This document shows, in pieces, positions 28,358 to 28,809 of a stretch of 64,000 bases of DNA. A program made the position numbers and the translations under genes. The stretch spans positions 248,001 to 312,000 of the forward strand of contig NZ_FNJV01000005.1 in NCBI RefSeq assembly GCF_900103125.1. Direction: 5' to 3'. Each line of letters opens with the position of its first letter. The first letter of the stretch is position 1. The notes beneath the pieces are model-generated. The model saw only the letters and a list, made by a program, of their open reading frames with translations, was not told the DNA's origin and ran no database searches. Source of the stretch: Mucilaginibacter sp. OK268. GTDB taxonomy: Bacteria > Bacteroidota > Bacteroidia > Sphingobacteriales > Sphingobacteriaceae.

Positions 28358-28390
28358 TTTGGAATTACCATTTATATCACCCTATATTTG
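28358..28390 (+). promoter_or_regulatory. Promoter of the SAM-riboswitch/metY operon
   Basis: TTTG (28358-28361), 21 bases, then TATATTTG (28383-28390), an exact match to the Bacteroidota consensus TTTG-N19-21-TAnnTTTG. Transcription would begin near 28397, about 55 bases before the riboswitch core. Confidence 0.65.
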
Positions 28391-28452
28391 CAACAATATT
28401 TGGTAGCGATACCATTGATCAATTCTCCGCGATAGTTCGGGTTTTGATTTAT

Positions 28453-28535
28453 AAAGAAGCGGCGAGAGATCAGGCTCAATGACCCGCTGGCAACCCTCCA
28501 AAATTGGAGAAGGTGCCAATTCCTGTCCCGGAAAA
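28453..28535 (+). ncRNA. SAM-I (S-box) riboswitch
   Basis: The conserved S-box core is present in order: GAGA followed by CAGGCTCAATGACC, then GCTGGCAACC, a CTCC...GGAG stem (28496-28509), and AAGGTGCCAATTCC before TGTCCCG. SAM-I aptamers bind S-adenosylmethionine and turn methionine genes off. The genes downstream (metY, metX, hom) are the expected targets. After the aptamer, CCCGG and CCGGG (28527-28543) can pair as part of the expression platform. The outer limits of P1 are approximate. Confidence 0.92.
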
Positions 28536-28563
28536 TAACCCCGGGGAATATAAATTTATAACC

Positions 28564-28674
28564 ATGAAAAGTTTAATTAAATTTAATCAGTACAGTATTT
28601 TTAACACCTCAAACGGTAGTATACAACATATTAGCTTAAATATTAGCGGTATTTGTATGTGTTGCTGCTGCTGA
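28564..28674 (+). CDS. Poly-cysteine leader peptide (candidate attenuator ORF)
   Basis: A 36-codon reading frame starts at ATG 28564, 30 bases after the riboswitch core, and ends CMCCCC-stop (cysteine codons 31 and 33-36, TGT or TGC). The rest (MKSLIKFNQYSIFN, NISGI) is ordinary. Five cysteines in the last six codons, in an operon that makes homocysteine from sulfide, is the layout of a translation-coupled leader: ribosomes stall there when charged tRNA-Cys is scarce. It is between a SAM riboswitch and metY, so the operon would have two layers of control. The peptide is short and its expression is inferred from position and codon content. Confidence 0.6.
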   Translation: MKSLIKFNQYSIFNTSNGSIQHISLNISGICMCCCC

Positions 28675-28681
28675 TCGACCT

Positions 28682-28749
28682 GACACGTCCTCTTTTTCTG
28701 ATCCCGAAAAACGCGCGTGTTGCAACAACTGGTAAGATCATTTACCAGT
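28682..28749 (+). promoter_or_regulatory. Hairpins following the poly-Cys leader
   Basis: A long two-part stem joins GACACG (28682-28687) to CGTGTT (28716-28721), with TTTTTC/GAAAAA (28693-28698 and 28706-28711) inside. A second perfect 8-bp stem is ACTGGTAA (28728-28735) with TTACCAGT (28742-28749). No T-run follows either, so they do not look like ordinary Rho-independent terminators; a stalling, Rho or translation-linked mechanism is more likely (inference). Confidence 0.5.
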
Positions 28750-28809
28750 CCAGTTAAAAATCCATCAAATCGTTAAAAAATTAATTAAACACATTTCAAT
28801 CTTACAACT

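Follow-up and report, generated by a model that had tools for sequence, protein, structure and literature searches.

A leader RNA upstream of Bacteroidota methionine genes that probably reads both SAM and cysteine supply

The locus described here raises the question of whether a methionine operon that stands behind a SAM-I (S-box) riboswitch is also subject to a second layer of control, one that senses cysteine through a leader peptide. It lies in the window, which is the whole 64,000-nucleotide stretch of Mucilaginibacter DNA that was analyzed; the source genome is 7.16 Mb in size, and its MetY is 97% identical to that of Mucilaginibacter lappiensis. An earlier note on this DNA had proposed such a layer from a poly-cysteine open reading frame (ORF) behind the aptamer, and when relatives were compared, both the cysteine run and the start codon of this ORF were found to be conserved across genera and families, so that the proposal came through the comparison unrefuted. 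The second, cysteine-sensing layer of the operon is supported, with the response to cysteine itself being predicted from the sequence, and the leader RNA upstream of Bacteroidota methionine genes probably reads both SAM and cysteine supply.

All parts of the element lie on the forward strand. A consensus promoter had been claimed, and at 28360-28390 we found a match to the Bacteroidota-type promoter pattern TGG-N20-TATATTTG, which is also present in the metY leaders of relatives. The SAM-I aptamer that had been noted before follows at 28446-28556, and its match to Rfam RF00162 (82 bits) passes the curated gathering score of 44.4. Its P1 helix is made up of the 5' strand UUUAUA (28448-28453) and the 3' strand UAUAAA (28549-28554), the latter covering positions −15 to −10 relative to the start codon of the leader. 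The first ATG 3' of the aptamer, 7 nt on, opens an ORF of 36 amino acids (28564-28674; MKSLIKFNQYSIFNTSNGSIQHISLNISGICMCCCC) with the end ICMCCCC-stop, in agreement, by coordinates and translation, with the 36-codon ORF ending CMCCCC-stop described before. The codons for Ile-Cys-Met-Cys-Cys-Cys-Cys (28651-28671) are the proposed regulatory codons, and they hold a strand 1, AUGUGUU (28657-28663), which is able to pair with a strand 2 behind the stop codon, a pairing without covariation support. Both of the stems reported at this end of the leader are present, the first as a hairpin at 28682-28721 (−10.3 kcal/mol; strand 2, GACACGU, at 28682-28688 and strand 3 at 28715-28721), inside which UUUUUC (28693-28698) is paired with GAAAAA (28706-28711), and the second at 28728-28749 (−9.4 kcal/mol). 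The downstream order metY-metX-hom was borne out by the best NCBIfam matches, which are TIGR01326 for metY (O-acetylhomoserine sulfhydrylase, 28810-30135), TIGR01392 for metX (homoserine O-acetyltransferase, 30214-31269; below the curated cut-off) and PRK06349 for hom (homoserine dehydrogenase, 31269-32504; above the cut-off).

An Rfam Leu_leader match elsewhere in the window (34935-35092; 53 bits) was set aside as a probable false positive; judged by eye, the stretch holds a long inverted repeat (CGTCATTGCGAGGTACGAAG...), behind which stands an ordinary terminator and its T-rich tail. A genome-wide search with a poly-Cys ORF pattern yielded 10 matches, compared with 1 for the reversed pattern, and because most of these overlap with long frames or do not leave an ORF of any length, the matches are uninformative alone. 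Outside the long frames of the same genome, an ORF with the end MKREVCCCC (L009, C11:105294) stands 219 nt upstream of two ORFs, one of 215 aa and the other carbonic-anhydrase-like (named by eye), and is possibly another cysteine leader.

The riboswitch and the start of the leader

The metY loci of relatives (set 1) were taken as the best 80 of a longer list of MetY relatives, a sample weighted to near kin; one locus without upstream DNA (L103) was left out, and the other 79 were searched with an S-box model built from 22 aptamers. An S-box was found upstream of metY in 75 of the 79, making 76 loci with the window added, and one set-1 locus (L123) has a second S-box further upstream. The model search gave no match in four of the 79, one of which has only 70 nt of upstream DNA. 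The promoter-like pattern was located 31-61 nt 5' of the S-box in 64/76 loci, versus 1.2% of letter-shuffled upstream stretches. In every one of the 76 loci, a short ORF begins at the first ATG 3' of the aptamer, and the riboswitch adjoins the start of this upstream ORF (uORF) at a distance of 1-13 nt (mode, 7 nt). The stacking with the S-box is systematic and not peculiar to the window genome.

These loci were compared with a contrast set of 95 S-boxes from genomes of the family, made up of 60 hand-picked among those listed and 35 further loci; the hand-picking left out about as many rows, many of them from g16, so that Met-Arg-ended leaders are under-represented in this set. Among the 29 S-boxes of the contrast set that precede metY, 28 are followed by a first ATG that opens a short ORF, and in 24/29 two or more of its last 12 codons are for Cys. 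The same test was passed by 7/66 S-boxes of other genes, two of which (L190 and L195) precede metX-like ORFs (named by eye). The two groups also differ in P1, which at metY S-boxes is A/U-rich and ends near UAUAAAUU, beside the ATG, whereas at most other S-boxes it ends near GAUAAG. One locus (L220, genome G019) is without a leader, and here it is the start codon of metY that follows the S-box, at a distance of 10 nt; as seen there, P1 is placed at the start of the first ORF, be it leader or metY. L220 is, in addition, a natural example of a locus that lacks the second layer.

The short distance between aptamer and start codon at all set-1 loci means that P1 overlaps the ribosome-entry region of the leader. 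In the available text on initiation in this phylum, Bacteroidota are described as being without Shine-Dalgarno sequences, and in Flavobacterium johnsoniae strong initiation is associated with adenines at −14 to −11, −6 and −3, and weak initiation with structure around the start (PMC6847099). Between the S-box and the ORF there is no terminator belonging to the riboswitch, and P1 ends just 5' of the ORF. With SAM bound, P1 would bury the A/U-rich ribosome-entry region and the leader would be left untranslated; with SAM low, the leader would be translated. From this arrangement we infer that SAM binding shuts the leader ORF, and the two layers probably act in series. We consider it likely that the leader RNA forms a serial two-input gate, in which the S-box gates translation of the leader and the Cys/Met codons gate the operon, so that the operon would be on when SAM is low and cysteine is low.

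Other S-boxes in the family also have short ORFs behind them. In the window genome, two tandem S-boxes (L003 and L006; C12:100946-101782) are each followed by a short ORF, MKSYQTLITDHAGICCCC and MKTVNYLQSYVQAASGLRCCSIQFAFWF, and precede an ORF for a secreted protein, which gives this genome a second stacked leader. Six S-boxes (L021, L026, L178, L179, L188 and L207) have Cys-rich short ORFs within 350 nt, ahead of SusC-like TonB receptors or, at L178, a peptidase-like ORF (all named by eye), and these may represent a sulfur-scavenging branch of the same control.

The spread of the arrangement was examined in two draws from the class Bacteroidia, of 247 and 395 genomes, with all genomes that matched in the first being within the second. 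Only MetY matches at E ≤ 1e-120 were counted (91 of the 395 genomes), which gave 92 metY places besides the window, and 91 upstream regions were examined after G255:C54 was left out; in species, this draw partly overlaps set 1. An S-box was located upstream on the same strand in 53/91 regions, and at 33 of these 53 loci, from ten families, three or more of the last 12 codons of the first-ATG ORF are for Cys. The 20 loci that fail this test belong to f54 (six), f15 (four), f68 (three), f1 and f2 (two each) and f35, f40 and f63 (one each). Five of the f54 failures are S-boxes without a leader and the sixth has a Met-Arg-rich leader, those of f68 have very short ORFs, and the Met-Arg endings among the failing loci are from g16 or f54; one locus scored as a failure (L137) has a 3-aa ORF at the first ATG and a Cys leader at the next.

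Among the 37 usable S-box-free regions of this draw (L274, without a usable upstream part, was left out), a Cys- or Met/Cys-rich ORF was present within 600 nt in 15, versus 4.7% of shuffles and three on the reverse strand. Examples are MNQYSRHTSTQMHMTMCSMHQMMCCCCMHGCMC and, in f54, MNNTVVNKMMMCCKMPMCIPIYCCRK. At several f54 loci, metY is preceded by only one of the two elements, the S-box at L170, L267, L269, L271 and L275 and the Met/Cys leader at L169, L171 and L265. Since leaders without an S-box and S-boxes without a leader both occur, stacking is one of three states.

The S-box-free leaders indicate that a leader can work alone, and S-boxes without such leaders stand ahead of other genes and of metY in f54. 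Both observations would fit two parallel layers, with the leader attenuating on Cys and Met and the S-box acting separately, on transcription or RNA stability. We regard this arrangement as unlikely, since the 1-13 nt from aptamer to ATG at the 76 set-1 loci leave no room for a separate expression platform and P1 at these loci is of the special A/U-rich kind, and we favor the serial gate.

The cysteine-rich end of the leader

At least 3 Cys were found in the last 12 codons of the first-ATG ORF in 70/76 set-1 loci, compared with 65/7600 dinucleotide shuffles (0.9%); these counts use the ORF of the first ATG, and a separate display of the leaders used the ORF richest in Cys. The six loci below 3 Cys are two from Sphingobacterium, with the end RMR, and three from Pedobacter and one from Pseudopedobacter, with two Cys each. 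The last 12 codons of the set-1 leaders contain 222 TGT, 150 TGC, 6 TGG and 101 ATG, making Cys by far the commonest residue of the conserved end and ATG the third commonest codon. Because both synonymous codons are in use, Cys appears to be kept as an amino acid, and the leader sequences indicate that selection is acting on it as such and not on the DNA, with Met as its companion. Since the run contains both Cys and Met, the two amino acids may together be the signal. In the CMCCCC run, a ribosome that lacks Cys-tRNA or Met-tRNA would stall, and one with ample Cys would go on to the stop codon, which lies at the base of the first post-stop hairpin; the second input of the serial gate would be Cys and probably also Met.

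The prominence of Met raises the alternative that the leader mainly reads Met, or general translation speed, with the Cys run serving as a slow-codon device. Besides the ATG count, it draws on the Met share of Met plus Cys, which is 0.43 in leader-only peptides (n = 14) versus 0.23 in the others (n = 102), a hint only of greater Met content, given that the 14 were selected in part by their Met and that the sequences are related. It also draws on the leaders of Sphingobacterium and g16, which end in RMR with few or no Cys. We judge a Met or speed reading to be quite improbable for the leaders in general, as Cys is the commonest residue of the conserved end by such a distance, and in both of its codons. 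The RMR-ended leaders (L106 and L113 from Sphingobacterium; L133/L182, L183, L185 and L193 from g16) are in place after the S-box, and perhaps sense Met only.

In contrast to its end and its spacing to the S-box, which are steady, the rest of the ORF varies; its length ranges from 27 to 54 aa over the 76 set-1 loci, and the N-terminus differs between genera. On account of this variation, we regard the product of the ORF as a leader peptide and not as a working protein. That it might encode a functional Cys-rich small protein, binding metal or serving in redox reactions, is very improbable in our estimate. The ORF is conserved over families, and Cys-rich ends can bind metals; against this, only the end is conserved between genera, the ORF is always found between the S-box and the met gene in set 1, and scans gave no NCBIfam match for the window peptide and no Pfam match for five leader peptides. 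A chance ORF behind the S-box, for which only its shortness speaks, can be counted as refuted by the presence of the Cys run in relatives, namely in set 1, in the class draw and at the Pedobacter loci described below. The conserved feature is well supported, and a switch function for it is predicted from these comparisons.

RNA structure behind the stop codon

The RNA behind the stop codon folds more stably than shuffles in some genera, with folding z of −2.55 for Mucilaginibacter (n = 26), −1.54 for Pedobacter (n = 19) and, a slight excess only, −1.09 for the mixed rest (n = 19); Hymenobacter showed no structure excess over shuffles (z −0.03, n = 10). Two leaders with fewer than 2 Cys (L113 and L106) were left out of this comparison, and rows were left out of two alignments (L066 and L071 from A2, L093 from A3). 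In 26 aligned leaders of Mucilaginibacter and close kin, the first post-stop hairpin is 89.3% paired and has 12 double changes versus 5.9 in shuffles. The rival 1:2 pairing, in which the Met-Cys codons pair with the same strand, is 83.2% paired in Mucilaginibacter and showed no covariation, and pairing of the 1:2 type gave no folding gain in Pedobacter (z +0.22).

The Pedobacter element differs in sequence from that of Mucilaginibacter, and the evidence for it is stronger. It consists of two stems, an invariant CUUCC/GGAAG one and, directly behind it, another that shows compensatory changes, for which an alignment by MAFFT is a freer test than the model-fitted one. A model of the element gave a strong match (E ≤ 1.5e-8), one per genome, in 36/40 g14 genomes and a weak one in a 37th; g14 is probably Pedobacter, judging from the G110 leader, which is identical to that of Pedobacter chitinilyticus. 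At 30 loci with the element, both an S-box and a leader with a Cys/Met cluster at its end were present in 30/30. In the alignment of these 30 loci, which leans to the model and includes several loci from species that also built model R2, 99.7% of cells are paired, with 29 double changes versus 8.9 in shuffles.

The hairpins lie close behind the leader. In Pedobacter, the 5' arm is located 8 nt past the stop in 18/30 loci and within 2-12 nt in 11, and a search by its letters did not locate it in the remaining one; in Mucilaginibacter, the hairpin is 6-8 nt past the stop in 19/28, as located with a loose motif. Post-stop hairpins are supported in Mucilaginibacter and Pedobacter, and not in Hymenobacter. 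With the usual ribosome footprint, a ribosome at the stop codon would touch this stem and a ribosome stalled in the Cys run would not. The position of the ribosome would set the structure of the post-stop RNA and with it the entry of RNA polymerase into metY-metX-hom, and the operon would be fully on only with SAM low and sulfur amino acids short. Translation of the ORF, occlusion of its start by P1, stalling and the final step are all predicted parts of this scheme.

A classical attenuator of the trp/his type was rejected, as neither scan nor folding gave an intrinsic terminator with a U-tract after the last hairpin. A scan of 28340-28810 found no terminator-like site, and no U-run directly follows either window hairpin or the second Pedobacter hairpin. 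The earlier note had stated that there is no T-run, which holds for the DNA directly 3' of either stem but not for the 5' half of the first stem, where a T5 tract is located at 28693-28697.

When 15 Mucilaginibacter-type leaders were folded from the codons to just past strand 2, 12 of them reached −7 to −16 kcal/mol, and most of these 12 use the 1:2 pairing, followed by a U/C-rich tract; the folds were weak for the window (−5.1 kcal/mol), M. lappiensis (−5.2 kcal/mol) and L060 (−3.6 kcal/mol). The pairing of the Cys codons with strand 2, together with the U/C-rich tract, is a possible terminator in Mucilaginibacter, but one that showed neither covariation there nor a folding gain in Pedobacter. 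In some Mucilaginibacter only, the Met-Cys codons pair with AACACAU near the metY start. Since there is no terminator-like site in the leader, the operon may be shut off at the final step by Rho, by RNA decay or by a terminator that is weak or unusual, and termination at the Cys-codon hairpin and its U-rich tract would be the form of terminator to consider in Mucilaginibacter.

Relation to known leaders and significance

Each half of the arrangement has counterparts elsewhere. Work by Canestrari in 2020 reportedly deals, by its title, with leaderless mycobacterial polycysteine ORFs ahead of cysteine genes. As with polycysteine attenuators, sulfur genes are preceded here by a short ORF in which Cys codons adjoin the stop, and as in leader attenuators in general, the run of cognate codons is conserved between species. 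The element described here differs in that the mycobacterial attenuators are leaderless and belong to cysteine genes, whereas here an S-box precedes the ORF, the operon is one for methionine and the hairpins are conserved in two genera; the window ORF is itself probably not leaderless, being preceded by the putative promoter and the 111-nt S-box. The mycobacterial polycysteine attenuators are referenced in the available part of PMC13236596, and that of PMC1262725 describes Actinobacteria in which a short ORF for a Cys leader peptide, its Cys codons at the stop, precedes sulfur genes, with no clear terminator.

The aptamer is a plain SAM-I (RF00162), and SAM-I riboswitches whose P1 contains the site of ribosome entry are known; in the available portion of PMC2258182, however, P1 is said to control the gene that follows, and here it abuts a leader-peptide ORF. 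Riboswitches that act on the translation of an upstream ORF are found in Mycobacterium tuberculosis, in Mbox-rv1805A (PMC12810186) and in B12 riboswitches with uORFs (PMC11260477), with other ligands and, in the accessible text of these papers, no description of an amino-acid-sensing codon run. The SAM riboswitch (SAM-II) of the Sinorhizobium meliloti metA leader likewise controls a ribosome site 5' of the true start, but the available portion of PMC9373788 describes an in-frame AUG1/AUG2 with a terminator between them, and no leader peptide with regulatory codons. The closest in logic are the SAM-I/T-box(Met) tandems, which, as set out in the available text of PMC9481103, also combine the absence of SAM with amino-acid shortage; the sensor there is a tRNA-binding RNA, and here it would be a translated peptide.

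In Bacteroidota, leader-peptide attenuation ahead of amino-acid operons is treated in general terms for Flavobacterium psychrophilum in the available portion of PMC9723704, and amino-acid leader peptides of the phylum are mentioned only in general terms in those of PMC9723704 and PMC7366714. The published literature searched, which covered few subscription papers, contained no description of Cys leaders, or of an S-box joined to a leader peptide, in Bacteroidota, in agreement with the earlier note, to whose author no such leader combined with an S-box was known in this phylum. The arrangement would be a peptide version of the SAM-I/T-box(Met) logic; the pairing of a riboswitch with a uORF and the Cys leader are each known elsewhere, and the literature searched contained no report of their combination.

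A wider reading, which we put forward tentatively and rate somewhat below even, is that the Met/Cys leader is a widespread control of metY in Bacteroidota, ahead of which a SAM riboswitch was directly inserted in Sphingobacteriales and Cytophagales with the leader start codon as its sole output. This would create a gate that opens in the absence of SAM and at low Cys, the peptide would have been freed from Met sensing, and the hairpins without a U-tract close behind the stop would act by an attenuation step not yet described. The more than 100 leaders collected here form a testable set, including natural variants without one part or the other. If the serial gate is correct, it carries a prediction on initiation without Shine-Dalgarno sequences, with P1 lying over the A-rich −14 to −11 region, and, with leader-peptide initiation as the output of a riboswitch, two metabolic signals would be merged in a simple and natural manner.
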